A stretch of DNA of 64,000 bases from Cryobacterium levicorallinum (GTDB lineage Bacteria; Actinomycetota; Actinomycetes; Actinomycetales; Microbacteriaceae): positions 1-64,000 of the forward strand of contig NZ_SOFE01000027.1 of the NCBI RefSeq assembly GCF_004402405.1, written 5' to 3'. Of this stretch, positions 5,557-59,658 are shown piece after piece; the first letter of the stretch is position 1, and every line of letters starts with the position of its first letter. A program made the translations under genes and the position numbers. Under the pieces are notes generated by a model. It saw only the letters and a list, made by a program, of their open reading frames with translations. It did no database searches and was not told the DNA's origin.

Positions 5557-6726
5557 ATGCCCCGTGTCTTACGTTCCGCCAGCCTGCTCGGCCTCGGCGT
5601 TCTCGGTATCGGCCTGCTGAGCGGCTGCGTCGCCAACAGCCCGGCGGCCACCCACACCGCGCTCACGGTGGACAGCAGCGCGACCGACTGCGCGGTGAGC
5701 GCGAACGAGGCGCCGACCGGCAGCATCCGTTTCTCGGTCACCAATTCCGGTGACCAGGTGACCGAGTTCTACCTGCTGGCCGCAGACGGCCTGCGCATCG
5801 TGGGTGAGGCGGAGAATATCGGTCCAGGACTCACCCGCGACCTGGTCGTGGAGCTCGCCGAGGGCAGCTACTTCACCGCCTGCAAACCGGGCATGACCGG
5901 CGACGGCGTCGGCAAGGCCGAGTTCACCGCCACCAAAACGGATGCCGCCGCCACCGTCGACGTCGACCTCGTCACCCAGATCGATACCTCGAACACAAAC
6001 TACGCCTCCTACGTAAGCGACCAGATCGACCAACTCGTCACCGGCACCGACGCGTTCGCCGCCGCCTATTCAGCCGGGGACGACGACACCGCCCGCAGCC
6101 TGTACGCCTCCACCCGGGTGCACTGGGAGCGCGTCGAAACCATCGCCGAATCGTTCGGCGACCTCGACCCCAAGCTCGACCTGCGCGAAGCCGACCTCGA
6201 AGAGGGCCAAAACTGGACCGGCTGGCACGCCATCGAGAAGGATCTCTGGCCGCAAGACGCTGAGGCGGGTTTCGTGGCCTACACCGCCGAGAAGCGTGCG
6301 GCGCTCACCGAGCAGCTCGTCGCCGACACCGCCACCCTGCACGAGAAGGTGCAGGGCCTCACGTTCACCCTGTCGCAGCAGACCAACGGGGCCATCGGCC
6401 TGCTCGACGAGGTCGCCACCGGCAAGGTCACCGGCGAGGAAGAAGCCTGGTCGCACACCGACCTCTGGGATTTCCAGGCCAACGTCGACGGCGCCAAAGT
6501 GCTTTACGACGGGGTGCGACCGATACTGCTCAAAACGGATGCCGACCTGGCCGCTGCGCTCGACACCGAGTTCGGTTCGCTGCAGACACTGCTCGACGCC
6601 CAACGCGTTGATGAGGGCTTCAGGCTCTACACCGACCTCACTCCGGCCGAGATTCGCGCCCTCGCCGACCAGGTCAACGCGCTCGGCGAGCCGCTCAACC
6701 AGCTCACGGTCGCGCTCGTGTTGTGA
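5557..6726 (+). CDS. efeO: Iron-uptake lipoprotein EfeO (cupredoxin plus M75 domain)
   Basis: A 389-residue exported lipoprotein that supplies iron to EfeU. A signal peptide ends in the lipobox LLSGC (Cys24). Residues about 35-135 form the cupredoxin-like domain. The remainder is the M75 (imelysin-like) helical domain with the diagnostic GWHAIEKDLWP (HxxE metal-binding motif) near residue 228. The ribosome binding site AAAGGA precedes the ATG. The stop overlaps the efeB start by four bases (GTGA), indicating translational coupling. Confidence 0.95.
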   Translation: MPRVLRSASLLGLGVLGIGLLSGCVANSPAATHTALTVDSSATDCAVSANEAPTGSIRFSVTNSGDQVTEFYLLAADGLRIVGEAENIGPGLTRDLVVELAEGSYFTACKPGMTGDGVGKAEFTATKTDAAATVDVDLVTQIDTSNTNYASYVSDQIDQLVTGTDAFAAAYSAGDDDTARSLYASTRVHWERVETIAESFGDLDPKLDLREADLEEGQNWTGWHAIEKDLWPQDAEAGFVAYTAEKRAALTEQLVADTATLHEKVQGLTFTLSQQTNGAIGLLDEVATGKVTGEEEAWSHTDLWDFQANVDGAKVLYDGVRPILLKTDADLAAALDTEFGSLQTLLDAQRVDEGFRLYTDLTPAEIRALADQVNALGEPLNQLTVALVL

Positions 6727-8054
6727 CGGGCTGGACCGGTTCTAAGCGGGCAGAATCCAGCGAGGCCGGGTCCACCAAACCGGCCGGCACAGCACGAGGC
6801 CTCTCCCGGCGCGGGCTACTCGGCCTCGCCGGGGCCAGCGTCGCCGGCATCGGGCTGGGCGCAGCCGGGGACCGGGTGGCGCTGGCGGCGTCGGCGTCGC
6901 CGGGTGAGGCATCCGCTTCGGCGGTCTACCCGTTCTATGGCAGCCACCAGGCCGGCATTGTCACGCCCGCCCAGGATCGCCTGCACTTTGCCGCGTTCGA
7001 CGTCTCGGCGGGCGTGACGCGAGCCGAGCTGATCGAGCTGCTCCAGGACTGGACGGTCGCGGCGGCCGCGATGTGCGCCGGAGCGGATATCGGCGAGTAC
7101 GGCGCCGTCAGCGGCCCCTACGATGCCCCACCCGAGGACACCGGTGAGGCGCAGGGGCTGCCCACGGCCGGCCTTACGATCACGTTCGGCTTCGGTCCGA
7201 CCCTGTTTGAAACAGCGGATGGCGTCGATCGCTTCGGCATCATCGCCCGCCGCCCGGCCAATCTGACGCCGCTTCCGCACTTTCCCGGGGACGACCTCGA
7301 TGCCGGCCGAAGCGACGGAGACCTGTGCATCCAGGCCTGTTCCAATGATCCGCAGGTGGCCGTGCACGCCATTCGCAATCTGTCCCGCATCGCCTTCGGC
7401 CGGGCGGCCCTGCGCTGGTCCCAGCTCGGATTCGGACGAACCTCATCGACATCAACGGCCCAGGCCACCCCGCGCAACCTGTTCGGATTCAAGGACGGCA
7501 CCGCCAACATAAAGGCCGAGGAGCCCGCGGTCGTCACCGACCAGGTCTGGGTGTCCGCGGACGTCGGGCCCGCCTGGCTGACCGGCGGCTCCTACCTGGT
7601 GGCGCGGCGAATCCGGATGACCATTGAAACCTGGGATCGCACGATTCTTCGCGAGCAGGAGGCGGTGTTCGGCCGCACCAAGGGTGCCGGTGCTCCGCTG
7701 TCAGGCGGAACCGAGTTCAGCGAGCCAGATTTCACTCTGGCCGGCCGCGAGAATGAGCCGCTCATCGGTGCTGCAGCACACGTGCGGCTCGCGCATCCGA
7801 CCCAGAACCACGGCATGAAGCTGCTGCGTCGTGGCTACAACTTCGTCGACGGCAACGATGACCTGGGGCGGCTCGAGGCCGGTCTTTTCTTCATCAGCTT
7901 TCAGCGGTCTCCGGCACAGTTCACCGCGGTGCAGCTCAACCTGGCCAAGCACGATGCGCTCAACGAGTACATTCGGCACGTCGGGAGCGCGCTGTTCGCG
8001 GTGCCAGCCGGGGCAAGCCCAGGGAGCTACGTAGGCGCGGCTCTGTTCGCCTAA
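6723..8054 (+). CDS. efeB: Tat-exported dye-decolorizing haem peroxidase EfeB
   Basis: A 443-residue DyP-type haem peroxidase, third gene of efeUOB. It is thought to oxidise ferrous iron or act on haem outside the membrane. Residues 25-55 form a twin-arginine signal (SRRGLLGLAGASV) that would export the folded haem protein. The DyP motif GFKDG is at residues 255-259 with the distal Asp. The proximal haem ligand is probably His353 in AAHVRLAHP. The length is usual for the family. The GTG start overlaps the efeO stop. Confidence 0.94.
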   Translation: MTGWTGSKRAESSEAGSTKPAGTARGLSRRGLLGLAGASVAGIGLGAAGDRVALAASASPGEASASAVYPFYGSHQAGIVTPAQDRLHFAAFDVSAGVTRAELIELLQDWTVAAAAMCAGADIGEYGAVSGPYDAPPEDTGEAQGLPTAGLTITFGFGPTLFETADGVDRFGIIARRPANLTPLPHFPGDDLDAGRSDGDLCIQACSNDPQVAVHAIRNLSRIAFGRAALRWSQLGFGRTSSTSTAQATPRNLFGFKDGTANIKAEEPAVVTDQVWVSADVGPAWLTGGSYLVARRIRMTIETWDRTILREQEAVFGRTKGAGAPLSGGTEFSEPDFTLAGRENEPLIGAAAHVRLAHPTQNHGMKLLRRGYNFVDGNDDLGRLEAGLFFISFQRSPAQFTAVQLNLAKHDALNEYIRHVGSALFAVPAGASPGSYVGAALFA

Positions 8055-11740: not shown

Positions 11741-13519
11741 TCAGTCGACCGCAGTGCGCATCAGGGCAAGTCGCAACTGCCGTCGATCACGCTGCGCGTC
11801 GGGGTCCGGCACGGGAATTGCCGCAATGAGTCGCTGGGTATACGGGTTCGCCGGTGCTCGCAGAACGTCGTCACGTGAACCGGTCTCCACGATCCTCCCC
11901 TTGTGCATGACGGCAATGCGGTCGGCCATGATGTCGATCACGGCGAGGTCGTGGCTGATGAACAGGCAGGCGAATTTCATCCTCTCCTGCAGTTCTTTGA
12001 GCAGTGTCAGGACTGTCGCCTGCACTGAAACATCCAGAGCGGATGTCGGCTCGTCAGCGACCAGCAGGAGCGGGCTCAGGCTCAGAGCCCTGGCGATACC
12101 GACCCGCTGCTTCTGTCCGCCAGACAATTCGTGCGGGTACCGGTTGCGGTACGACCGCGGCAGTTGCACGCTGTCCAGGAGCTCCTCGACCCGCAGGCCG
12201 AGAGCCTTTCCGCGCGCTTCACCCGCGAGCTTGAGCGGCTCACCAATGCTGTCGCCGATGGAGAGGCGCGGATTGAGTGAGGAGGACGGATCCTGGAACA
12301 CGATTCCGACGCGGCGACGAAGCCCGCGCAAGTCCTTGCTCGAGGCATGGCTAATGTCGCGTCCGGTCACAATGAGCGAGCCCTCTGAAATGGGCTGCAG
12401 TCCGACGGCAGCTCGCCCGACGGTTGTTTTGCCCGATCCGGACTCGCCGACGAGGCCGAGAACCTCACCGGGGCTGATGCTCAGGGAGACGCGGTCAACG
12501 GCCTTGAACGCCTTGATCTTGCGGCGTTGACCGAACTCCACAGAAATATCGTCCATGCGCAGGGCTCCGTCGGGTGACACTGGCCGGTCGGTGCGTGTGG
12601 TCCGGTCGGTGGTCGTGACGGGGCCCTGTTCCAGGGCCTTCATGAGCGCGGCCGACACGTCGATGGCACCGGTCGCGTCGTCCGGGCCGAAACCGAACCC
12701 GAGACGGGGCACGGCCGCCAGCAACGCTCGCGTGTAAGGGTGCTTGGGGGCAGAGAAGATCTGATGCACCTCCCCCGCCTCTACGATCTCTCCGTCTTTC
12801 ATGACCACGATGTCGTCGGCGAGGTCGGCGACGACACCCATGTCGTGGGTGATCAGCAGGACGGCACTATTGAGATTGTCGCGCAGGTCGCGCAGCAGCT
12901 CAAGGATCTCGGCCTGCACTGTGACGTCGAGTGCCGTGGTCGGCTCGTCGGCGATGAGCAGCATCGGGTCGCAGGACAACGCCTGCGCGATCATGGCCCG
13001 CTGCCGCTGACCACCGGAGAGCTGGTGCGGATAGGAGTTGTAGGCCTTCTCAGGGTCGGGCAATTCGACCATGGTAAGCAGTTCGATAGCTCGAACACGC
13101 GCGTCAATGGGGCGCATTCCGGTGTGCACCCGAAGTGTCTCAACGATCTGGAACCCGATCGTGAACACCGGGTTGAGCGCCGTCATGGGCTCCTGGAAGA
13201 TTGCGGCGACCTTGGCTCCACGCACCTGCCGCATGTGGCCGGAGGTCAGGCCACGCAGTTCCTCGCCGTCGAGTTTGATACTGCCGGTCACCCGGGAGTT
13301 CCGGGGAAGCAGGTCGAGGATGGCCATTGAGCTCGCGCTCTTGCCCGACCCCGATTCGCCGACCACCGCGAGAATCTGACCGCGCCGGATCGAGTACGAG
13401 AGGTTCTTCGCCGCCGGCACCCAGTCGCGTCCCACACCGAACTCAACGCCGACTTTGATCATTTCGAGCACCGGAGCGGTACCGGGCTCAGGAGCGGTTA
13501 CTGAAATGTGAGCGTTCAT
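11741..13519 (-). CDS. Oligopeptide-type ABC transporter, fused double ATPase (DppD-DppF type)
   Basis: A 592-residue protein with two nucleotide-binding domains in tandem. The first has Walker A GESGSGKSAS near residue 52, signature LSGGQRQRA and Walker B LLIADEPTTALD. The second has GESGSGKTTV near 355, LSGGQKQRV and LLVADEPTSALD. Each ends in the oligopeptide family tail (HPYTRALLAA, NPYTQRLIAA). It energises the permeases encoded upstream. The ATG at 13519 overlaps the preceding permease stop (ATGA) and has an AAGG-type ribosome binding site; a longer frame to 13654 only overlaps the permease gene. The substrate is a peptide or similar solute by family, not proven. Confidence 0.9.
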   Translation of the reverse strand: MNAHISVTAPEPGTAPVLEMIKVGVEFGVGRDWVPAAKNLSYSIRRGQILAVVGESGSGKSASSMAILDLLPRNSRVTGSIKLDGEELRGLTSGHMRQVRGAKVAAIFQEPMTALNPVFTIGFQIVETLRVHTGMRPIDARVRAIELLTMVELPDPEKAYNSYPHQLSGGQRQRAMIAQALSCDPMLLIADEPTTALDVTVQAEILELLRDLRDNLNSAVLLITHDMGVVADLADDIVVMKDGEIVEAGEVHQIFSAPKHPYTRALLAAVPRLGFGFGPDDATGAIDVSAALMKALEQGPVTTTDRTTRTDRPVSPDGALRMDDISVEFGQRRKIKAFKAVDRVSLSISPGEVLGLVGESGSGKTTVGRAAVGLQPISEGSLIVTGRDISHASSKDLRGLRRRVGIVFQDPSSSLNPRLSIGDSIGEPLKLAGEARGKALGLRVEELLDSVQLPRSYRNRYPHELSGGQKQRVGIARALSLSPLLLVADEPTSALDVSVQATVLTLLKELQERMKFACLFISHDLAVIDIMADRIAVMHKGRIVETGSRDDVLRAPANPYTQRLIAAIPVPDPDAQRDRRQLRLALMRTAVD

Positions 13520-16290: not shown

Positions 16291-18066
16291 TTACGCAGCC
16301 ATCGTCCAATCCCAGAAGTTCCAGATCGGGCCAGTCTGCCAAGGGCTGTACTCAATACCGTCGACGTTCGGGCCAAAGGCAATCACGCCGGGCAGGATGT
16401 ACATCGGAAGTCCGAAACCACCCGCCCAGAGCGCTTTCTCCACCCCAACCTGCAGTTCGACCTGAGTGTCGGCGTCGGTCGTCGCCAGGAGCTGGTCCAT
16501 CAGGGCATCCGCTGCCGGGTCACTGAAGCCACCGAAGTTGCTGTCTGATGCGGAGTCGAACAACTGAGGAACGCCGAGCACTCCAGCACCGACGGTGCTC
16601 CAGCCGAAGATAAAGGCATCCCAGGTCTCGGGAAGTGCAAGGGCGTCGCCCCACTGGTCGGCCGGAAGGCCACCATCAACGACGATGAAACCGGCTTCAG
16701 CAGCCGAAGCCTGAATGGCCAGGAACGCGTCGACCCTGTTGGTGTTGGCGTTGCTGTAGGCCAGCCGAACTGTCGGTGTGGCACCGGCGAGCAACGCGGT
16801 AGCACCGGAAATGTCAACCGTGTCGTAGGCGTCTGAGCCGTTGGTCGAGGTGGCCTCGTCGTAGCCATTCACGCCCGGGAAGAAGATCTGAGAGTTGAGC
16901 AGTTCGGCTTCTGGGTCGAGCGGGCGAATGATCGCGTCGAGAATCTGTTCGCGCGGGATGGTCTTCAGGAAAGCCTCACGCACGTTGGCGTCAGCGAAAA
17001 CTCCACCGGCCGCAAAGTTCAGGTCGACGTGGTCGTAGCTGCCGGTATCGCCGGTCAGCACCTTGACGCCGGTGAGAGCCTCAAGCGACGACAGCGTATC
17101 CGCCGATGCCTGTGGGTTGATGATGTCAACCTCACCGTTCTGCAGCGCCTGTACCTGAGCGTTCGCGTCGCCGATGAACCGCACGACGATCTGGTCGATG
17201 CCAACAGGCGACAGGTCGCCGGTGTAGGTGTCGTTGACGGAAAGAGTGACCGACTGTGCCGGGTCCCACGATGAGACCACGAACGGGCCGGACGACAGGT
17301 ACAACGAAGAATCACTTGGGAGCGACGAAGTCGCGTAACCATTGTTCCAGAAATCAGCGACGGCCCGCAGGTCTGCGTTGGTCTCGACCGGAGCGTCGAC
17401 GTTGCCCTCGGTTGCGGCTTCCAGAATAGCGATCATGCCATCCGGCTCGAAGCCGGCCTGCTCGGCCAGCACGTGCGCCGGAACGCTCATCGGTGAGAAC
17501 AACGTCCAATCGGCATAGGGACCGGAGTAGGTGACGGTGATCGACTTGCCGTCATCTCCAACCTCGGGGAAAGCCATCTGGTCGAGGCCGGTCGTGCTGC
17601 CGGCCGGGCTGAAGTAGGTCGTGCCGACGGTGGCTTCAGCATCGGCGTCATCGAAGTAGCCGGACTGCGCGGCCCAGCCAAGGAGCATGTCATCGGCGTC
17701 GATGGATTCCCCGTCGGACCAGACAACGTCGTCATTGACTGTGTACTTGACCGACAGCGGGTCTTCAGAAAGGAGCTCGACCGTGCCGAACCCCTCGTCA
17801 TACACCAACGAAGCGGTGTCGTCGAGGTGAAAGAAGTCCCCCTGGGTGAAGTAGTCAAGCTGGTTGTTGATGTCGACGTTTCCGTCTGCCGTCCCGGTGT
17901 TGAACGAGCTGAGCTCGTTGACCTCGGCAATGCGCACGGTTCCGCCGGACTCCGCGGGCGTTTCGAGGTCATCAGTAGTGGTGCAACCCGCCAAGAAAAG
18001 CGAAGCGACACCCGCTATTGCGCCGGCCATGGCCAGGCGCTTTACGTGTGGTGTTGAAATGAACAA
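16291..18066 (-). CDS. Oligopeptide-type ABC substrate-binding lipoprotein (family 5)
   Basis: A 591-residue solute-binding lipoprotein. The lipobox is LFLAGC (Cys28). The mature part has the SBP_bac_5 layout: VNELSSFNTGTADGN at the start, WSDGESIDADDMLLGW near residue 120, a central PFVVSSWDPAQSVTL, and the C-terminal lobe ending WNFWDWTMAA. It delivers the ligand to the permeases encoded downstream. The TTG start directly follows AGGAGGAAAA, a strong site. The TTG may limit translation. The ligand cannot be read from the sequence; peptides are the family norm. Confidence 0.9.
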   Translation of the reverse strand: MFISTPHVKRLAMAGAIAGVASLFLAGCTTTDDLETPAESGGTVRIAEVNELSSFNTGTADGNVDINNQLDYFTQGDFFHLDDTASLVYDEGFGTVELLSEDPLSVKYTVNDDVVWSDGESIDADDMLLGWAAQSGYFDDADAEATVGTTYFSPAGSTTGLDQMAFPEVGDDGKSITVTYSGPYADWTLFSPMSVPAHVLAEQAGFEPDGMIAILEAATEGNVDAPVETNADLRAVADFWNNGYATSSLPSDSSLYLSSGPFVVSSWDPAQSVTLSVNDTYTGDLSPVGIDQIVVRFIGDANAQVQALQNGEVDIINPQASADTLSSLEALTGVKVLTGDTGSYDHVDLNFAAGGVFADANVREAFLKTIPREQILDAIIRPLDPEAELLNSQIFFPGVNGYDEATSTNGSDAYDTVDISGATALLAGATPTVRLAYSNANTNRVDAFLAIQASAAEAGFIVVDGGLPADQWGDALALPETWDAFIFGWSTVGAGVLGVPQLFDSASDSNFGGFSDPAADALMDQLLATTDADTQVELQVGVEKALWAGGFGLPMYILPGVIAFGPNVDGIEYSPWQTGPIWNFWDWTMAA

Positions 18067-18418
18067 ATTTTCCTCCTGTGCAGTGTGTGTGCAAATGACG
18101 GCCGCGCATTTTTTTTGTCGCGCCGCCGCCCTGGTGGTGCTTCGACCCTAGGGCGGCTGTAGTACGCCAAACGAGCAAGGTACGAAACGTTACACACTGG
18201 TAACTCAAAAACACGCTTTCTATGAATTATTCTCATAAAGAAGACAAAATATCTGTATATTGCTCACAAGCGCTCCCGTTTTGCGGGCGCGCTGAGATAT
18301 AATACAGGCCGGTTTAGCGTTGCAGTCGGCGAGGCTTACGAACAGTTCGCACTTTCTGCACACTCTGCGACGAAAACCGATTTCGTCGCAGAAGCTAGAA
18401 CACGCTCCAGGCTTGACT
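18067..18418 (-). promoter_or_regulatory. Leader and promoter region of the first peptide ABC operon
   Basis: This 352-base gap separates the binding-protein start from a decayed ATPase gene. It contains a TATTATA-like -10 candidate on the minus strand near 18295-18302 and an inverted repeat (GCGCTCCCG at 18270-18278 and CGGGCGCGC at 18284-18292, one mismatch). The long leader (about 220 bases) is AT-rich compared with the surroundings. No gene is seen. The promoter assignment is tentative. Confidence 0.35.
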
Positions 18419-19287
18419 ACTCGTCGATCCCCGCAGCCAGCAACTCGCGACGCAGCTCCCGGCGGGCGCGCTGTTCGGTCGGATCGGGGAGCGGTCGCGA
18501 GCAGCCGCTGGGTGTACGGGTGTTTCGGGTAGCGCAGATTCTCGTCTCGAGTGCCGGTTTTCACGATGCGGCCGTGGTGCATTACGGCAATTCGATCGGC
18601 GAGCACGTCGATGACCGCGAGGTCGTGGGTAATGAACAGGCAGGCGAAGTCCACCGGCTTCTGCAGCGACTGTATGAGTTGGAACACGTGAGCATGCACT
18701 GACACGTCGAGGGCGGTCGTGGGTTCGTCGGCGATGAGCAACTGCGGGTCCATAGGAGACGGATTAAGCGATCATGGCACGCTGACGTTGTCCACCGCTC
18801 AATCGGTGGGGGTAGGAGTTGAACGCCATCAGCAGATTAAGCTGTTCGACCATGTCGAGCAGCTCATGCGCGCGTCTTGGACTGCGAGGGGGATATGCCG
18901 AAGTGGGCACGCAGGGTCTCGATGATCTGAAACCCGATCGTGTCGACCGAGTTGAGCGCCGTCATCGGTTCCTGAAAGATCATCGCTATCTGGCCGCCGT
19001 GCACCGTGTGTATCTGAACGGGCTTCAGTTCCATGAGCTCACGGCTGTTGAGCTTGACGCTGCCAAAGATGCGGTTGTTTTCGGGGAGCAGGTCGAGAAT
19101 ACTCGTCTAGCTGGCGCTCTTTCCCGAGTCTGACCTGCCAACGATGGCGAACACGTTGCCCCGCTCGATCGAATAGTTCAGGCTGAGCGCGGCCGGCACC
19201 CAAACGTTATCGACGCCGAAGTGCACGGTGAGGTCGGTGACCTGCAGCACACGGCGAGACAACGTGGTCGTCGCCTCGTCGGCCATG
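18419..19287 (-). pseudogene. Decayed oligopeptide ABC ATPase, hybrid of two ATPase halves
   Basis: Minus-strand remains of a peptide ABC ATPase. The beginning (MADEATTTLSRRVLQVTDLT, Walker A region GRSDSGKSAS) is followed at once by a TAG stop. Then come LLPENNRIFGSV, IFQEPMTALN, a frameshift, SGGQRQRAMIA and another stop. The last part, IADEPTTALDVSVHAHVFQ and FACLFITHDLAVIDVLADR, resembles the second half of the fused ATPase at 11741-13519, whereas the front resembles its first half. A final frameshift separates the tail, whose original end reads RRELLAAGIDE and stops at 18419. It is non-functional as an ATPase. Confidence 0.85.
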
Positions 19288-52957: not shown

Positions 52958-53127
52958 GCCAGAACGCTAACACTCGACGCAGTCAACCGACGCAATTCCA
53001 TCGGACGAGCGGCCGCTCGGGTGGCGGTGGACTTCTTTTGGGGGCACTGCGTCCACGCGCAGACCGCGCCGAGCCTCACTTCGTCGTGCAGTCGGGCGGA
53101 CTATCGTGCGACGGGGCAACGAGTTCG

Positions 53128-53802
53128 CTACTCCCGGCCGTCCTCGAGCGGGATGAGCATGGTGCGGAACGGACCGGCAACGGCGTGGAGGTCCCAGATG
53201 CGATCAGCGACGCCATCGATGCCGTTGGCAAGCTGAAGCTGGGGGATGCCGCCGGGGATCACCAGTTGGTTAACCCGGATACCGTCACCCTCTAGGGCAT
53301 CGTGCAGCATCTCGCCGTAGGCGCTCTCGGCGGGGAAGGCGATCGACGTGCCGGCGAAGCCGGCGCGCGCCTGCACCGAGGTCCCGCCGTTAATCAGGAT
53401 GATGCTGCCGCTTCCTGCCAGACGCATTCCCGGCAGCACCGTGCGCACGGCGTGGATGAGTCCGAGGGCCGAGAACTGCAATGCCTCCAGCGCCAGCTCA
53501 GGAGTCATCTCCAGCACCGACTTCAGGTAGTCGCGCGACGGGAGAGGACTGTACTGCAGCGCAGTAATGGGACCGAGCTCTGCCGCGGCACGTGCAAGGG
53601 CAGCTTCGAGCGACGCGGGCGTGCGGACATCCGCAGCGTAACCACTCGCGGTGAAGCCGGCATCGGTCAGCTCGGCTGCCATAGCGTCCAGCTTCGACTG
53701 GTTCCTGGATATCAGGGCAAGCGAGAAGCCCTCGCGCCCGAACCGGCGCGCAACCGCTGCGCCGAGTCCCGGTCCGGCTCCGATGATGGCGATGACAGGC
53801 AC
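53128..53802 (-). CDS. Short-chain dehydrogenase-like protein without the Tyr-Lys pair
   Basis: A 224-residue Rossmann-fold protein. The nucleotide motif is VIAIIGAGPGLGAAVARRFG at the N-terminus, followed by LALISRNQSKLDAMAAEL and GYAADVRTPASLEAALARA. The serine region is GSGSIILINGGTSVQ near residue 134, but the usual YxxxK pair is replaced by AYGEM, so normal SDR chemistry is doubtful. The GTG start has GAAGGAG seven bases upstream; the longer frame to 53889 runs into the repeat at 53856 and is rejected. It lies directly left of the oldest-looking ychF-end repeat. Confidence 0.8.
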   Translation of the reverse strand: MPVIAIIGAGPGLGAAVARRFGREGFSLALISRNQSKLDAMAAELTDAGFTASGYAADVRTPASLEAALARAAAELGPITALQYSPLPSRDYLKSVLEMTPELALEALQFSALGLIHAVRTVLPGMRLAGSGSIILINGGTSVQARAGFAGTSIAFPAESAYGEMLHDALEGDGIRVNQLVIPGGIPQLQLANGIDGVADRIWDLHAVAGPFRTMLIPLEDGRE

Positions 53803-53855
53803 GATGGTCTCCTTCGATTGATGCTCTCGTGACGAATATCGCAAGAAACTTGAGC

Positions 53856-53896
53856 CTAAGCGTTGAACCTGAAATCCAGCACGTTCCAACGGCTGC
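53856..53896 (-). repeat. ychF 3'-end repeat, copy 1 (most diverged)
   Basis: On the minus strand the codons read N-V-L-D-F-R-F-N-A-stop, against D-V-V-E-F-R-F-N-V-stop at the true ychF end (58585). The stop codon is at 53856-53858. The arm upstream of the codons shares only TTGGAACGTG with the other copies. Confidence 0.7.
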
Positions 53897-53929
53897 CTGC
53901 ATGAAGTCCGGAGACTGCGGCACGCGCAT

Positions 53930-54067
53930 TCAGGGATGCATTGACGCGATGACTAGTCCGACGTCGCACGGGTACGGGGCCCGTCTTTCGAACAGCCGCC
54001 CCAGTTGGGCGAAGTCTCGCGCCCCCAACGCATTGTGCGCAACTACCTTGATCGAAGAATCTGTCAC
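53930..54067 (-). CDS. Small ORF coupled to higA, possibly a truncated acetyltransferase
   Basis: A 45-residue frame starting with GTG at 54067, overlapping the higA stop by four bases (GTGA), so translation should be coupled. The sequence (VVAHNALGARDFAQLGRLFE, then a short PYPCDVGLVIASMHP) vaguely resembles the beginning of GNAT acetyltransferases and then stops. It ends 34 bases from ychF-end repeat copy 1. I read it as a cassette gene cut off near the repeat. It is too short for a certain family call. Confidence 0.4.
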   Translation of the reverse strand: MTDSSIKVVAHNALGARDFAQLGRLFERRAPYPCDVGLVIASMHP

Positions 54068-54384
54068 GCGACCTTCAGCGGTGTGATCGATGCAACCTTG
54101 TCCCGCAGCGCCCGGCGCTCGCGACGCAGCTCATAGTTGGACTGCAGGTTCATCCAGAACTCTTCCGATGTTCCGAAGTACCGCGCCAGGCGGATCGCCG
54201 TGTCGGCCGTAATGCCCCGCTTGCCGTGCACGATCTCATTGATCCGGCGCGGCGGCACCCCAATGCTGACCGCGAGCTTGTTCTGCGTGATCCCGAATCC
54301 ATCGATGAAGTCCTCCATCAGGATCTCTCCCGGATGGATCGGCTCGATCGAGTCGTTCTCAGTGGTAGTCGACGAGTTCGACAT
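54064..54384 (-). CDS. higA: HigA-type antitoxin
   Basis: A 106-residue XRE-family antitoxin that neutralises HigB and represses its own promoter. The HTH reads ITQNKLAVSIGVPPRRINEIVHGKRGITADTAIRLARYFGTS, preceded by the family start HPGEILMEDF. The C-terminal part binds toxin. The start lies inside higB (26-base overlap), so the order is toxin then antitoxin, as is usual for higBA. It lies in the cassette between ychF-end repeats 1 and 2. Confidence 0.93.
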   Translation of the reverse strand: MSNSSTTTENDSIEPIHPGEILMEDFIDGFGITQNKLAVSIGVPPRRINEIVHGKRGITADTAIRLARYFGTSEEFWMNLQSNYELRRERRALRDKVASITPLKVA

Positions 54385-54640
54385 GGTCTGCTCCTCCTTC
54401 TCTCCAGACGAAGCAGATGCGCCACTGGACGTTCACCCGGATGTTGTACTGACCTCGACGGTCCCCGACCAGCTGTTCCAAACGATTGCCCGGAGGGATC
54501 CGAAGGTCCTCAAGATCCTTGGCCGCATTGACCAACTCGAGTTTCCGCAGGGTCGCTCGCTGCACCGCGCGGTCGACACCCTTGACGTACTGCTCATGCC
54601 AGATCTTTCCAGTGTCCTTGATACCGAAAGACCTGATCAC
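54359..54640 (-). CDS. higB: HigB-type mRNA interferase toxin
   Basis: A 93-residue RelE/ParE-superfamily toxin that cleaves mRNA on the ribosome. Family features are MIRSFGIKDTGKIWHE at the start, ATLRKLELVNAAKDLEDLR, IPPGNRLEQLVGDRRGQYNI (the basic active-site loop), and NVQWRICFVWREGGADHVEL. The GTG start falls inside an inverted repeat. A TATAGA element ends eight bases upstream, so the message may be leaderless. The promoter region runs into ychF-end repeat copy 2. Confidence 0.92.
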   Translation of the reverse strand: MIRSFGIKDTGKIWHEQYVKGVDRAVQRATLRKLELVNAAKDLEDLRIPPGNRLEQLVGDRRGQYNIRVNVQWRICFVWREGGADHVELVDYH

Positions 54641-54648
54641 ACGATCAG
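54633..54648. promoter_or_regulatory. Probable HigA operator over the higB start
   Basis: CTGATC-ACAC-GATCAG is a perfect inverted repeat. It covers the higB GTG (54638-54640) and lies just after the TATAGA -10 candidate, where HigA binding would block transcription. Confidence 0.65.
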
Positions 54649-54673
54649 TCTATAACGCATCGCGTCAATAACG

Positions 54674-54718
54674 CTATACGTTAAACCTGAACTCCACCGG
54701 ATTCCGTGACAAAGCAAC
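54674..54718 (-). repeat. ychF 3'-end repeat, copy 2
   Basis: The minus-strand codons read P-V-E-F-R-F-N-V-stop, with the stop at 54674-54676. The non-ychF arm GCTTTGTCACGGAA matches those of copies 3 and 4 at most positions. The hypothetical gene to its right stops two bases beyond the arm. Confidence 0.85.
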
Positions 54719-54719
54719 T

Positions 54720-55145
54720 TCACGCCTGGCGATCGAGGCGCTCGTCATCGTCCGGTGTGATGACCATTCCTTCATGCGTCACTGTCGCTCCGAGCACCTC
54801 GCCGTGCTTGTCGAGGAACACCACATCAACATCACCCAGCTCGGTCCAGGGCTCCGTGCTCGCAACATCAGGGAAGATGCCTCCCAGACCGTCGAGCGCC
54901 TGAATGATTTCGCGGTCGTAGGCGAACCTACGCTTCACCGCGGTGAGGCGCTGTCGCGCGTAGCCGTTCCCAGGCTTAACACCGACAGTTCTCGTCGATT
55001 CCAGGTGCGCCAGTTGCGCGACCAGCGGGTGACCGTCGTCACCGTTGTTAAAGACCAGTTCTATATGGGCAATTCTGGCTCGCAGCGACTGCATCCATTC
55101 CCTCTGCGCATCACGCATGATGGACTGTCCCGATCCAGAAACCAT
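54720..55145 (-). CDS. Hypothetical protein in cassette 2
   Basis: A 141-residue soluble, acidic protein that I do not recognise. The N-terminal half is helical (REWMQSLRARIAHIELVFNN, LVAQLAHLES, YARQRLTAVKRRFAYDREII) and the C-terminal half looks like beta strands (DVDVVFLDKHGEVLGATVTH, then GMVITPDDDERLDRQA). ATGs at residues 1 and 10 are both possible starts. The stop codon lies two bases from the arm of ychF-end repeat copy 2, and the gene body fills the space to copy 3. Confidence 0.6.
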   Translation of the reverse strand: MVSGSGQSIMRDAQREWMQSLRARIAHIELVFNNGDDGHPLVAQLAHLESTRTVGVKPGNGYARQRLTAVKRRFAYDREIIQALDGLGGIFPDVASTEPWTELGDVDVVFLDKHGEVLGATVTHEGMVITPDDDERLDRQA

Positions 55146-55270
55146 GGCCTTGTTCTCCTCTCGCGACCGGCGTTCGCGTCGCGGTCACGCAGGCACGGGA
55201 CGACGATCAGCTATCTGCGCATGTCACTCCTCGCAGGGAGTCAAATTGTATACGCCGGCCCAGTACGAGC

Positions 55271-55314
55271 TCAAACGTTGAAGCGGAACTCCACCACGTT
55301 CCGTCACTAAGCAA
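55271..55314 (-). repeat. ychF 3'-end repeat, copy 3
   Basis: The minus-strand codons read N-V-V-E-F-R-F-N-V-stop, the same residues as the real YchF end apart from the first, but with different synonymous codons (CGC, TTC, GTT, and TGA as stop). The arm is GCTTAGTGACGGAACG. Confidence 0.9.
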
Positions 55315-55405
55315 CGTTACGACAGGAGTCGGTTCACCAGCGCGCAGTACGACCTCAGCGGCACGGTATTCGTCAGCCACGGCCCGTGAATTGCGTCGAT
55401 TCATC
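55315..55405 (-). pseudogene. Gene start cut off at repeat copy 3
   Basis: An ATG at 55403-55405 with GAGG upstream begins MNRRNSRAVADEYRAAEVVL and continues for about 30 residues (RAGEPTPVVT) up to the arm of repeat copy 3, where the frame runs on through the repeat out of the YchF frame. It seems to be the 5' end of a gene whose rest is missing. No family is recognised. Confidence 0.35.
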
Positions 55406-55433
55406 TTGGGGCCCTCGGGAGGCGGAACGAGAA

Positions 55434-55662
55434 TGAGCGACATCACGCCAGCGCGCGATCTCGTCCCGGATCGATATGCCAGTTTTCCCATGCTGCGATT
55501 GTTCCTCCCGCTGATCGACGCCAACGATCAGACGCGCCGATGGTCGTCCTATCTCGACGACGGAATCGAGCTGACCGGCTCCACGGATTGGTTCGAACTC
55601 TGGAATCGGCATAAGAAGTCCCATGGGGCATTCGAGCCCGATAGGGGCGTGCACACTCAGAA
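55434..55662 (+). pseudogene. Gene start cut off at the weak repeat candidate
   Basis: The plus-strand ATG at 55434 gives MSDITPARDLVPDRYASFPM, then LRLFLPLIDANDQTRRWSSY and TDWFELWNRHKKSHGAF. The third-position G+C is high, as expected of coding DNA here. The frame stays open past 55663-55692, where a diverged ychF-end-like sequence lies, but the later part overlaps a better gene on the other strand. I take the real part to end near 55662. No family is recognised. Confidence 0.4.
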
Positions 55663-55692
55663 CGAGACACTGAATTTAAATTCCACGCAGTC
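55663..55692 (-). repeat. Possible ychF 3'-end repeat, weak copy
   Basis: The minus-strand codons read D-C-V-E-F-K-F-S-V and then TCG instead of a stop. About 20 of 30 bases agree with the native ychF end. It may be an old, mutated copy or chance. Confidence 0.35.
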
Positions 55693-55765
55693 ACGTCGAG
55701 AGGTTAGATCTGGGATGGGCGGCCCTCTCGCGCATGTGGGTGAGGGCGCTATCCGGTGGTCGAGA

Positions 55766-56194
55766 TTACTCAGCCACCTCGCCGCTTGCCCAGAACACCT
55801 CTTCGGTCAGGCACGCCCCCAGCGTCGCCGAGAGCTCACTCGCTGTGGAAACCGGGTGGAAGCCGCCCCCGAGTCCTACCTCGTCGCCAGCGCTGATGAC
55901 ATAGCCGTCGGGAAGAATCACCTCATCGCTGCCGCCAATAGTCGTGCCCCGTGGGAACACGATGAGGTAGGTCTCCTCTGCTTCGACCACCATGCAATCG
56001 CCACGCCCCCACGCGACTGTTCCCTCCGCGAGCGCCTGCTCTTGAACGTCACTCGTCTGCCCGGAGACGGCAATCAACCGGCCGTTCGGGGATTCCTGAA
56101 CCGAGGTCGCCGACGTCGCCGAGCACGCGACGAGACCGACACTCACTGAAAGAACGACCCCAATGCCGAGAGTCCTGCGCCGCCAATTGCTCAT
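55766..56194 (-). CDS. Small lipoprotein of unknown function
   Basis: A 142-residue exported lipoprotein. The signal peptide MSNWRRRTLGIGVVLSVSVG ends in LVAC, with the lipid-bearing Cys at residue 23. The mature part is mostly beta (GRLIAVSGQTSDVQEQALAE, CMVVEAEETYLIVFPRGTTI, LPDGYVISAGDEVGLGGGF) and ends in GACLTEEVFWASGEVAE. The start at 56194 was chosen because the signal peptide begins there. It lies in the block between repeat copies 3 and 4. No family is recognised. The 275 bases to the next gene hold no other gene. Confidence 0.7.
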   Translation of the reverse strand: MSNWRRRTLGIGVVLSVSVGLVACSATSATSVQESPNGRLIAVSGQTSDVQEQALAEGTVAWGRGDCMVVEAEETYLIVFPRGTTIGGSDEVILPDGYVISAGDEVGLGGGFHPVSTASELSATLGACLTEEVFWASGEVAE

Positions 56195-56469
56195 GTTTGG
56201 AGCATGGCATCCATCACGGCAGTGATGCCAGACCGCCGAAGCTATCGATGCCGAGTCGCAACTCGGACAGCCGCGTTCGCGGCGGCCTGCGGCCCGCTGC
56301 AAACCGTCACCACCTGACCATCCGCCACACGGCACCGAAGCTCACGGAACACCATCGGCAGCAAGGCCGACAACTTCGCCGCGCCCACCACCAAAACACC
56401 GCCCAGCAGTCAGCGACCCCGTTCACTCAAGGCGGACCGGTGGATCGAGGCTTAGTAAGATTCGGGTTC

Positions 56470-57180
56470 ATGGGGCGAAACTTGGCTATCGATACGACGT
56501 TTGACGTGCGGACCGACGCTCGCGGAAAAGATCCTGACACGCACAGTCGAACACTTCGCAAATATCACATGCAGCTCTGGAGCAAACCCTTGCCCAACGG
56601 CGTTCTGTTCGACTTGGACGACCACACGCCGGACGCGTATCTGCACCACAAGTCTGCCTTGGGCGAGTTCTACCTTGCGAGTGATTCCGTCATACCCACG
56701 TTCGACAGCTGGTTCAGGATGGCGCACATTATCGACGAGATACCGGAAGTGGAACGGAAGTCGTTCCACGATATCGGGTACACGATCGGCGGGATGATGC
56801 TTTTCCCCGGCAATAAGGTGGACGGTAAACAGACCATCAACGGTGCCCGCGGGTTCAATCAGAAGATCGCCGATCGGCTCGATCTCACCCTCGAATGTGT
56901 ACGACGGCACTACCTCGGCATGGGCAGCCCCCTCGGTGAGACGCTTGCCCGGTATCCCGATTTCTTCGCTCTGTTCGAAAGCTTCGAAGGCTACGTGAAA
57001 TTTTTCCTCCTGCAAGATCTTGTAAATGAAGACTCCACTGCAGTCAGGTTCTTGATGCCGTTCGATGACTTCCGCCCGCCCGCATTTCCGAGGACGATGG
57101 CTGCCTATCAGGATTATCGGAGACTAACGATCGAGTTCGTCACATCGCGAAATCGCCGAATCGCGGACTTTTGGAATTAG
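56470..57180 (+). CDS. DUF6994-like hypothetical protein
   Basis: A 236-residue soluble protein. The N-terminal pattern TTFDVRTDARGKDPDTHSRT, then LRKYHMQLWSKPLPNGVLFD and IGGMMLFPGNKVDGKQTING, matches what I remember as the DUF6994 family of unknown function, found in varied bacteria as a single-domain protein. Its third-position G+C is lower than that of the core genes here, suggesting a different origin. There is no clear ribosome binding site before the ATG; a GTG ten codons upstream is an alternative. It lies in the block between repeat copies 3 and 4, intact and full length. Confidence 0.65.
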   Translation: MGRNLAIDTTFDVRTDARGKDPDTHSRTLRKYHMQLWSKPLPNGVLFDLDDHTPDAYLHHKSALGEFYLASDSVIPTFDSWFRMAHIIDEIPEVERKSFHDIGYTIGGMMLFPGNKVDGKQTINGARGFNQKIADRLDLTLECVRRHYLGMGSPLGETLARYPDFFALFESFEGYVKFFLLQDLVNEDSTAVRFLMPFDDFRPPAFPRTMAAYQDYRRLTIEFVTSRNRRIADFWN

Positions 57181-57307
57181 CGCTCGCATCATGACGTACG
57201 TCGAGGCTTCCGCGCCACTTTGGCCAAATGAAGCAACGATTCGCTAGAGAAAGCGCGGTGACCGGCACGGGCGCCCATCACCGCTTCAAGCCCTGGATCC
57301 ACTTGAA

Positions 57308-57352
57308 CTAAACGTTGAATCTGAACTCCACCACGTTACGTTACAGAACAAC
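57308..57352 (-). repeat. ychF 3'-end repeat, copy 4
   Basis: The minus-strand codons read N-V-V-E-F-R-F-N-V-stop (TAG at 57308-57310). The arm is GTTCTGTAACGTAACG. The stop codon of the truncated gene to its right (57341-57343) is formed inside this arm. Confidence 0.9.
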
Positions 57353-58222
57353 CCCTGAACCGGGTGAGCGAGCGAGTGCGGTCGTCCCCGCCGCCGGCAG
57401 ACCCAGGTCTGCACCGAGCTGAACGAACCAGCGGCGCTGGTAGGCGGGCAGATCACTTCTCAAGGCTGACTCGACGCCTTGAACGACGAAGCTCCGACTC
57501 CACACTCCAGCCTCCACGAGCCCGGGCACGACCACTGTTCGAAGTGGATCGTTGACATCACTCCGGTCGCTCTGCCTCAAAGAAGCACCTTTGATGCCAC
57601 GCGTCGTGAAGAGACGAGCGAAGAGCACCCTGGTGACTTTCGGTCTCGCAAGCAGCCAGTACAAAAGCGGCTTCCCCGGCCTGTCAGCCCAACCGCTGAT
57701 CAGCATCAAGACAGCTCCATCATGATGTGGTGCCTCGACGAGACCTTCTTCAATCCACTCATACATCACGGCCCGACCCCGGTTACGGTCCCAGTTCTTG
57801 GGATTCGCTGCGAAATCCGAAGACCATTGATCGACGAACGCGATGAGGTCGTTGGGGAACAAGGCCGGGTACACCCACTGCGCAAACGAACGGTCCTCTG
57901 GTATCGGCCAGACTTTCGCGGCCTGAGCGGGCACTTTGGAGGCCAGCAGGACGGTGGTCGCCGCATCCCAGTGCCCTAGTTCCAATGGCCCTGTCCAGGC
58001 GTCAACGAATTGCGCATACCCCCCGGGATAGTCTGCTCGCAGATCGCGAAGCCACGAAGTCACCGTCGATGCTGAACTCGCGCACAGGATGGCCTTGGCC
58101 TGACCAACCAGGGGCTTGCACGCCGCGCGGCGCTCGTACGGCTCAACGGAAGCGAGTCGGGCCGCAAGGTCACCCGAACGGCCCGTTGCGAGGAGGTTCC
58201 TGAGCGAGTCGACCGTGAGCAT
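57341..58222 (-). CDS. Truncated hypothetical protein ending inside repeat copy 4
   Basis: A 293-residue helical protein: MLTVDSLRNLLATGRSGDLA, YERRAACKPLVGQAKAI, WDAATTVLLASK, then SFAQWVYPALFPNDLIAFVD and KPLLYWLLARPKVTRVLFAR. The style fits HEAT-like repeat proteins of the DUF6493 group, which are much longer as I remember them. The frame runs into the arm of ychF-end repeat copy 4, which supplies its last residues (GVVL) and the stop. I therefore read it as an N-terminal piece cut by recombination at the repeat. Confidence 0.6.
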   Translation of the reverse strand: MLTVDSLRNLLATGRSGDLAARLASVEPYERRAACKPLVGQAKAILCASSASTVTSWLRDLRADYPGGYAQFVDAWTGPLELGHWDAATTVLLASKVPAQAAKVWPIPEDRSFAQWVYPALFPNDLIAFVDQWSSDFAANPKNWDRNRGRAVMYEWIEEGLVEAPHHDGAVLMLISGWADRPGKPLLYWLLARPKVTRVLFARLFTTRGIKGASLRQSDRSDVNDPLRTVVVPGLVEAGVWSRSFVVQGVESALRSDLPAYQRRWFVQLGADLGLPAAGTTALARSPGSGVVL

Positions 58223-58490
58223 AACCGAATGCTAGTCCGCTCTCCGCCCACCAGGTTCGCCGTGCCTCGAAAGAAGGGTCTTTGTCCCGCGGGCGGCGCG
58301 GAGTGATTGCCGCAATCTGCTCAGCCATGCGATCCTCGGCAACATCGCGGTCATGCCGGTCCTGCAACGTCAACCAGAATTGCGCCGAGGTGCCGAAGTA
58401 CCTGGCCAGGCGGAGAGCCGTGTTCGCGGTGATTCGACGCTGGCCGTGCACGACCTCGTTGATGCGGCGAGGCGGCACACCGACGGACAC
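58223..58490 (-). pseudogene. HigA-like antitoxin remnant
   Basis: The frame reads SVGVPPRRINEVVHGQRRIT, then ANTALRLARYFGTSAQFWLT and AEQIAAITPRRPRDK, closely similar to residues 40-105 of the intact HigA at 54064-54384. The HigA start region (HPGEILMEDF to TQNKLAV) is missing, and the frame continues past the normal HigA end into the next gene. No HigB is beside it. The 94 bases between it and ychF encode a Leu/Ala-rich fragment on the plus strand of unknown origin. Confidence 0.75.
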
Positions 58491-58584
58491 CGCGCTCGAG
58501 ACGGCCCTCGCGGGCCTCCTCGACCATCAGAAAAGGCTCTGGCGGACCTCCTCGACCTGCAAGAAGCGGCCTTGGCCGGCCTGA

Positions 58585-58614
58585 TTAGACGTTAAACCTA
58601 AATTCGACTACGTC
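58585..58614 (-). repeat. ychF: Native ychF 3' end, reference copy of the repeat
   Basis: Codons D-V-V-E-F-R-F-N-V-stop (TAA at 58585-58587). Upstream in the gene, GACGGCGACGTAG resembles the GACGGAACGTGG of the ectopic copies with a one-base length difference, so homology ends about 30 bases into the gene. Confidence 0.85.
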
Positions 58615-59658
58615 GCCGTCTTGCATGACGTATTCCTTGCCCTCGATCCGCGCCTTGCCCTTCGAGCGGGCCTCGGCGATCGAGCCGGCGGCCATGAGGT
58701 CTTCGAAGGAGAAGATCTCCGCCTTGATAAAACCCTTCTGGAAGTCGGTGTGGATGACTCCGGCGGCCTGCGGTGCGGTCCAGCCCTTGTGAATGGTCCA
58801 GGCGCGGCACTCTTTCGGACCGGCCGTGAGGTAGGTCTGCAGACCGAGGGTGTCGAAACCGATGCGGGCAAGCTGGTCGAGACCGCTCTCGGCCTGACCG
58901 GTCGACGCGAGCATCTCGGCGGCGTCTTCGGCGTCGAGCTCGCTCAGTTCGCTCTCGAGCTTCGCGTCGAGGAACACGGCGTTCGCCGGAGCGACAAGCG
59001 CGGCGAGGGTGTCGAGCTTGGCCTGGTCCTGCAGCACGGCCTCGTCGACGTTGAAGACGTAGATGAACGGCTTCGCGGTGAGCAGGCCCAGTTCGCGGAT
59101 CGGCTCGATGTCGAGCGTGGCGGAGGACAGCGGCTGGCCACCGTCGAGGATGGCCTGCGCCTTGAGCGCGGTCTCCAGAACGAGCGGCGCCATCTTGCGG
59201 CCCTTGACCTCTTTCTCGAAGCGCAGCACGGCCTTCTCGAGGGTCTGCAGGTCGGCGAGGATCAGTTCGGTGTTGATCGTTTCCATGTCACCGGCCGGGT
59301 TGACCTTCCCATCGACGTGCACGACGTCGGGGTCGGCGAATCCGCGAATGACCTGGGCGATGGCATCCGCTTCGCGAATGTTGGCGAGGAACTTGTTGCC
59401 GAGCCCCTCTCCCTCGCTCGCACCACGCACAATGCCGGCGATGTCGACGAAGGACACGGGCGCCGGAAGCAGGGTCTTGCTGCCGTAGATGGTTGCCAGG
59501 TCGGCCAGGCGCGAATCGGGAAGGTTCACGATTCCAACGTTGGGCTCGATCGTGGCGAACGGGTAGTTCGCGGCGAGCACGTTGTTCTTGGTCAGGGCGT
59601 TGAACAGGGTTGACTTGCCCACATTGGGGAGTCCGACGATTGCAATAGTAAGAGCCAC
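58585..59658 (-). CDS. ychF: Redox-regulated ATPase YchF (Obg-family GTPase fold)
   Basis: A 357-residue P-loop NTPase of the TRAFAC/Obg class that prefers ATP and associates with the ribosome. It has G1 [14 protein letters not shown] at residue 8, G3 region [20 protein letters not shown], the NVDE-type G4 variant that explains ATP preference (FNVDEAV), and the C-terminal TGS domain with [20 protein letters not shown] and the final DVVEFRFNV. The GTG at 59658 gives the conserved [12 protein letters not shown] start; the frame to 59805 is not supported. Its last codons are repeated at several places to the left, marking an insertion site. Confidence 0.96.

Follow-up and report, generated by a model that had tools for sequence, protein, structure and literature searches.

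The 64,000-nucleotide stretch of Cryobacterium levicorallinum DNA considered here (Microbacteriaceae; contig NZ_SOFE01000027.1, positions 1 to 64,000; hereafter the window) carries a row of six small units behind ychF, filling 58.6 to about 53.05 kb with a HigBA toxin-antitoxin pair, a dehydrogenase, a lipoprotein and proteins of unknown function. The units are separated by a short repeat, and the question that the locus raises is what this repeat is and how the units came to stand there. A preliminary description of the DNA had proposed that genes are joined or cut by recombination at the repeats, as at the attC sites of integrons. Going beyond that description, we find that the repeat is the end of ychF and that it matches attachment (att) sites beside serine integrases. 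Each copy is best read as an att site, phage-type integrases appear to recognize these copies of the ychF end, and comparable rows in relatives of this bacterium point to a way of exchanging genes that has been overlooked.

On the minus strand the repeats read AACGTGGTGGAGTTC..TTCAACGT.TAG, and identical wording ends ychF at 58585. All of them, the strong copies and the weak copy alike, are one site, copied from the last 20 bp or so of ychF, which forms the head of the row; six cores share its orientation, from 58608 down to 53860. A search of the whole genome with the 20-bp core, allowing up to three mismatches, gave 13 places (3 for the reversed control). Six of these make up the row in the window and include the only four with zero or one mismatch, the remaining seven having three mismatches each. 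Comparison of the copies shows three parts in a cassette site: an outer arm some 20-25 bp long, then the core GTGGAGTTC, then the right half, CGCTTCAACGT.TAG. The outer arm is common to the cassette sites, absent from ychF and also present in phage sites, whereas the right half is common to the cassettes and ychF. Sites that share a left neighbor and differ in the right one diverge from +9 (32 pairs, some of which are ychF ends because the filter against these was imperfect), and those that share the right neighbor and differ in the left one are strongly different up to -2 (158 pairs); the exchange therefore probably occurs inside these nine bases.

In 64 stretches from the genus, the core has 131 matches on the ychF strand, ychF ends included, and 4 on the other. 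A weight matrix trained on 65 copies of the site, with sites counted at 12 bits or more, found 73 sites on the ychF strand of 582,313 bases and none on the opposite strand, and none on either strand of 55,900 window bases outside the row. A degenerate core pattern matched in 55 of the 57 genus genomes, with one match overall for its reversed control; chance repeats are ruled out by these scans, and the repeats of the preliminary description are real, being six copies of a single site.

The genus set comprises 57 loci (56 stretches and the window), in 49 of which the end of ychF was located; the remaining eight include contig pieces and loci set behind large inserts. Loci from named Cryobacterium genomes match loci of this set at 100% identity over as much as 8 kb, which places the set in that genus. 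Behind ychF, 33 of the 49 loci have one to five additional copies of the site, 73 altogether with a median spacing of 1,213 bp, and 16 have none. The units between them are shuffled: the dehydrogenase of the window recurs in 32 of the 49 loci at varying positions and with varying neighbors, beginning 73-77 bp behind the core start in 15 of these 32. Genes in the arrays run along ychF in 60 cases and against it in 33. One locus (L098, from genome G051) has a tandem duplication next to ychF, in which near-identical genes (about 6476-7141 and 17551-18636) and an unusual site (at 12685 in reverse-strand coordinates) are each present twice at a distance of about 11.5 kb.

YchF varies in its final residues according to the element behind the gene, so that insertions recast the C-terminus of a universally conserved ATPase. 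The protein ends in FQATSGQK in G034, G013 and G014 (stretches L096, L101 and L097), in HGNLSTGK in G009 (L094) and in HGNTSGGAK in G051, and has FNN in place of FNV in G004 and G042 (L102 and L103). In L096, two more sites (L096:3246 and L096:8020) have a ychF-like left arm and apparently belong to a second type of unit at the same place; one of them ends a 615-aa gene whose product closes with GDVVEFRHQATSG.

The link between the site and serine integrases emerged from phage sequences and from the wider family. A core-pattern scan of viral contigs returned three stretches (L071, L072 and L073). L072 has ychF followed by other genes, one of them capsid-like by our own reading. The other two have a large serine integrase gene that starts 35 bp (L071) or 44 bp (L073) downstream of the site. 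Their sites score 56.1 and 59.2 bits with the cassette-site matrix, and both were outside its training set. The integrases of L071, L073 and the Cryobacterium genome G014 have Resolvase and Recombinase domains, as do large serine integrases of about 450-500 aa. Some relative of the L073 serine integrase occurs in 33 of the 57 genus genomes, the two best being those of G014 and G009; in G014 the distance from the site to the match start is 52 bp, and this site is followed by two others. Among the viral contigs, the L073 query matched itself alone and the G014 query nothing. In a family sample of 398 genomes, only about 10 of them from the genus, 14 had a serine integrase match at 1e-60. Six of the 13 new loci carry the site (35-53 bits, 25-62 bp from the match start) and seven do not. 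In all six site-bearing genomes ychF lies 3.6-40.5 kb from the site; the integrase occupies the distal end and is read in the direction of ychF. Conversely, none of six genomes with a siteless integrase has ychF near it on the same contig: it is 166 and about 300 kb off in two and on another contig in four (G439 is too fragmented to judge). Across the two viral contigs, the Cryobacterium array and the six family genomes, the site stands 25-62 bp upstream of the serine integrase gene. Serine integrases in general do not mark the site, as eight phage integrases, six others from the genus (L076-L081), the second G014 integrase and the G009 integrase have none adjoining. The G009 locus (G009:C62:97023-133118), with about 36 kb from ychF to the next site and a serine integrase at 128651-130030, is likely a prophage at ychF.

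The edges of units shared between genomes bear on where exchanges would have taken place. Copies of the 1.3-kb cassette 1 of the window occur in G026, G033, G036 and G037 and match it at 99.4-99.8% identity, while ychF is 90.4-95.8% identical among the five genomes. Each of the four, aligned with the window, last differs from it in front of the cassette at the base immediately preceding the core, and then not again until at least 58 bases later. At the far core, three of the genomes fall to 21-26% identity with the window; the fourth, G037, continues into cassette 2 at 98%. In G037, cassettes 2 and 3 stand between cassette 1 and the next unit; in G033 that unit adjoins cassette 1 directly, and it is 95% identical in the two. 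In G034, 14.4 kb of other DNA separates ychF from cassette 1, as expected if new units enter next to ychF.

For a wider comparison we used shared blocks with a minimum length of 200 bp and a minimum identity of 80%, dropping ychF overlaps and seven duplicate named Cryobacterium loci; the alignments are not independent. Between genera, 94 of 206 blocks start at the core on both sides of the alignment, compared with 0-2 for each of six shifts of the core, and within Cryobacterium 132 of 969 do so (0-3 when shifted). Because these counts far exceed the shifted controls and few block ends fit, the left edges are strong evidence and the right edges weak. Units have spread between species, and longer blocks between genera: Cellulomonas gelida and Microbacterium mitrae share 4,215 bp at 99.45%, both ending at the same site, and Kocuria salsicia has the last 1.3 kb of this block at 99%. 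An Arachnia and a Brevibacterium genome have a 1.2-kb unit in common, edge to edge, at 88%, and two Cryobacterium genomes a 1.4-kb unit at 99.6%; under strict edges, one whole-cassette match between genera was found. Across orders, L148 (Brachybacterium equifaecis) and L179 (Acidipropionibacterium jensenii) share 2,972 bp at 96.5%, ending at the site, and the serine-integrase frames of both are shortened.

The site itself also extends well beyond the genus. When 84,980 species, each represented by one genome, were searched for exact matches to the cassette-type arm followed by the core, 71 stretches were obtained, all actinobacterial by title and seven of them from Cryobacterium; none is ychF's own end. 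The other genera include Arthrobacter, Brevibacterium, Demequina, Brachybacterium, Microbacterium, Cellulomonas, Nesterenkonia, Kocuria, Nocardia, Gordonia, Mycolicibacterium and Tessaracoccus. In 31 of the 71, ychF lies inside the fetched stretch, always upstream and in the same orientation, and three stretches have a serine integrase, or a piece of one, that starts 45 bp from the site. For the other 40 stretches, 37 genomes were searched and all 37 have ychF; in a good part of them its coordinates would fit a distance of a few to about 20 kb, assuming the same contig, and in the rest it is on another contig or the distance does not fit. A class-wide prevalence from a relaxed pattern (34 of 394 genomes) was discarded, because many matches beyond the order resemble ychF's own end.

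Together, these observations enabled us to propose a model in which several lineages of single large serine integrases, carried by viral contigs and chromosomal elements, use the 3′ end of ychF as their attB, and in which integrase-less cassettes accrete there. We give this model a probability of about 0.8, a value held down by the incomplete cases of G014 and G009. As a docking site for serine integrases with accreted cassettes, the ychF end is well supported by the sequence comparisons. The attP would carry the last codons of ychF, and every insertion would therefore restore both the end of the gene and its stop codon, leaving it usable again. Since the right half of the cassettes nearly equals that of ychF, an insertion should leave ychF with an attB-like site and put the attP-like one at the far end. 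Units that keep their att sites and lack an integrase would then pile up behind ychF, the integrase being supplied in trans by a phage or prophage; they may exit as circles and enter another ychF locus, including those of other genera. Such movement in trans of the small cassettes is likely, although it is inferred, as are the chemistry and the order of insertion.

Several observations weigh against this model. In G014, ychF is on a different contig from the site-bearing integrase, and the G009 integrase lies 31.6 kb behind ychF with no such site adjoining; these two genomes were the only ones among the genus array loci matched by five integrase queries. The site-bearing integrases do not form a single clade; their distribution requires 4 changes on the tree (shuffled mean 9.4), and the G009 integrase groups with a site-bearing one (L148 was omitted from the tree as too short, and L179 is on a very long branch). 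Few shared blocks end at the core: 11 of 212 between genera (0-2 when shifted) and 31 of 848 within Cryobacterium, where one of the six shifts gave 37. The core between cassettes 1 and 2 (57312-57331 in the window) differs from that of G037 (L050), although both neighbors are the same, which suggests either that cores are exchanged separately or that the join arose twice. Finally, L073 has a tyrosine integrase on the opposite side of the site, with its end about 21 bp away, and tyrosine recombinases, found in 57 of 57 genus genomes, are potential users of the site.

These last points could be taken to mean that a tyrosine integrase, or the host XerCD, uses the ychF end in place of a serine integrase, and a long shared core at the 3′ end of a gene is typical of tyrosine integrases. 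We nevertheless consider this improbable. The common partner of the site is a serine integrase, adjoining it in L071, L073, G014 and six family genomes, and relatives of the L073 tyrosine integrase were absent from the other integrase loci examined. On the long 3′-end core of tyrosine integrases, a figure legend of PMC5704250 may also be consulted. The alternative that the units are leftovers of larger prophages or islands, decaying in place at ychF and never mobile as small cassettes, carries rather more weight and is still unlikely. Larger integrase-bearing elements do sit at ychF, one cassette of the window has lost about 980 bp internally, and the shortened integrase frames of L148 and L179 would fit such decay; against it, small units are shared whole, namely cassette 1 in five species and the 1.2-kb and 1.4-kb units described above.

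It is also conceivable that homologous recombination between ychF loci moves the units, with the repeats as mere short homology, since similar repeats and a conserved anchor gene would allow the exchange of whole loci. However, the ychF copies in front of cassette 1 stay 90-96% identical up to one base before the core, a persistence of divergence that leaves no conversion tract into ychF, and the outer arm, common to cassettes and phage sites, is missing from ychF; we regard this alternative as very unlikely. The integron-type array implied by the preliminary description accounts for small unrelated units, often toxin-antitoxin pairs, between short repeats. Its machinery nevertheless finds no support: 0 of 57 genus genomes exceed the cut-off of the integron integrase model TIGR02249, sub-threshold matches occurring in all 14 controls as well, and eight single strands gave no stable, attC-like fold (z -1.4 to +1.1). 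These two results rule out the attC comparison, and an integron here has next to no probability in our estimation.

The features of the row are listed below.

Table. The ychF row of the window: anchor gene, att sites and cassettes.
Feature	Coordinates	Strand	Remarks
ychF, anchor gene	58585..59658	-	Reading frame runs from 59805; GTG start presumed from the usual YchF start
Core at the end of ychF (attL-like)	58589..58608	-	1 mismatch to the core pattern; from here on no differences to four relatives
att site 2, core 57312-57331 with outer arm	57312..57355	-	65.8 bits
att site 3 (weak copy), core 55667-55686	55667..55710	-	24.1 bits
att site 4, core 55275-55294	55275..55318	-	62.7 bits
att site 5, core 54678-54697	54678..54721	-	56.7 bits
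att site 6 (weak), core 53860-53879	53860..53903	-	30.3 bits
Cassette 1: gene 57341-58222 (no Pfam family) and HigA-like remnant at about 58362-58494	57312..58608	-	Copies in four other species
Cassette 2: gene 56569-57180 (+) and lipoprotein-like gene 55766-56146 (-)	55667..57331	-	98% identical in G037; lipobox judged by eye
Cassette 3: remnant of a larger cassette; open reading frame at 55434 is the surviving start of a 185-aa gene	55275..55686	-	By comparison with G022 and G045
Cassette 4: gene 54720-55145 (alternative start 55094), no Pfam family	54678..55294	-	Protein found once in the genus arrays
Cassette 5: HigB toxin 54359-54640 and helix-turn-helix (HTH) antitoxin 54064-54384	53860..54697	-	PF05015 and PF01381 above cut-offs
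Cassette 6: short-chain dehydrogenase 53128-53805	53045..53879	-	PF00106; gene also in 32 of 49 genus loci

Five of the six units have att sites at both ends. No site was found at the far end of cassette 6 (about 53045), which was placed from the usual cassette length. The genome itself has no PF07508 protein at E 0.01 and ten tyrosine recombinase matches, and its row now seems to be without a cognate integrase. The remnant in cassette 1 is a 76% copy of the antitoxin region of cassette 5 without the toxin, and would be what is left of another HigBA unit.

The gene boundaries on which the preliminary description had relied can be read in this framework. The ends of two genes at the arms were correctly noted: the stop codon of the gene at 54720-55145 (54720-54722) touches the outer edge of its site (core plus 24 bp, 54721), and the gene at 57341-58222 has its final residues and stop inside the conserved arm (57332-57355), as expected of compact units filled to the end by genes. 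Its general idea, that the units owe their boundaries to recombination at a fixed sequence, is likewise supported, both by the 94 block starts between genera and by the base-exact edges of cassette 1. No homologue ending at the same residue without a nearby repeat was found; the protein encoded at 57341-58222 matched only itself in the 398 family genomes, and its four copies in the genus are the same cassette with the same edges. The cutting of genes at the repeats, conversely, is seen in none of the four genes for which it had been suggested. The minus-strand reading frame at 55405, said to run into a repeat, was not called as a gene by a simple gene caller, whether in the window or in the two relatives whose cassette is intact, and we treat it as spurious. 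The plus-strand start at 55434 is a real gene start, as supposed, intact as 185 aa in G022 and G045, but the gene was broken by an internal deletion, the one clear truncation in the row, rather than by a repeat. Intact cassette 3 in these two genomes holds a MazF-like gene and the 185-aa gene. The deletion in the window removed about 980 bp; its breakpoint, near 55636-55640, is about 27 bp inside the cassette, and both repeats are kept. The MazF label was assigned from sequence, the PHROG MazF-like growth inhibitor matching 1 of the 109 cassette proteins scanned.

The named arrays contain 109 closed units with a median of 1,214 bp, mostly of 0.6-2.8 kb, and 193 called genes in 138 clusters. 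The two largest protein clusters have 14 members each, one being HigB and the other probably its antitoxin. Cargo was scanned with 109 representatives of the 138 clusters, and among the 25 commonest families listed for each library, Pfam gave GNAT acetyltransferases, TetR regulators, PIN, HTH, HepT and dehydrogenases; PADLOC gave AbiD, a bSEFIR protein and candidate families, one or two each; and PHROGs gave mainly cargo-type families and two transposases.

If the model holds, ychF rows would add a serine-integrase counterpart to integrons and to staphylococcal cassette chromosome (SCC) islands, in a phylum for which the literature searched describes no such rows; that literature gave no account of ychF as an integration site in actinobacteria. 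At this one locus, which is simple to read, exchange of genes among actinobacterial genera could be followed, and the origin and travel of integrase-less cassettes become testable; the rows would also supply new pairs of integrases and att sites with a long shared core. In the catalogue study PMC10083194, integrases with site centers longer than 20 bp were removed at the last selection step. The broadest version of the proposal, in which the ychF end is the docking port of an integron-like capture platform of actinobacteria and integrase-less circles cross genera and orders, driven in trans by several phage integrase lineages that share this port, has in our view about even odds.

The nearest known kind is accretion of the type seen with SCC elements or with cis-mobilizable elements (CIMEs). 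According to PMC6222049, SCC and the Enterococcus cassette chromosome (ECC) resemble the ychF rows in their large serine recombinases, their use of the 3′ end of a conserved gene and their several attR-type sites per island. They differ in their target, rlmH, where the units here insert at ychF, and in their ccrAB pair, where we have single integrase genes (no ccrAB pair was seen, and no ccr search was made). ECC is also far larger in that account, 21-78 kb, and the ychF rows are actinobacterial. CIMEs, and the accretion of integrative conjugative and integrative mobilizable elements to which they belong, share integrase-less elements that retain att sites and are stacked at one site, according to PMC5704250, whereas the ychF units are cassette-sized and recur in shuffled order and across genera. 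A pneumococcal prophage, too, sits beside ychF, although according to PMC6375853 and PMC8637289 it lies upstream of the gene, with a different 14-bp site. With integrons, finally, the ychF rows have in common a row of small cargo at one site, probably growing by the anchor, with toxin-antitoxin and defence-like genes; they differ in having genes on both strands, and neither an above-cut-off integron integrase nor an attC fold.

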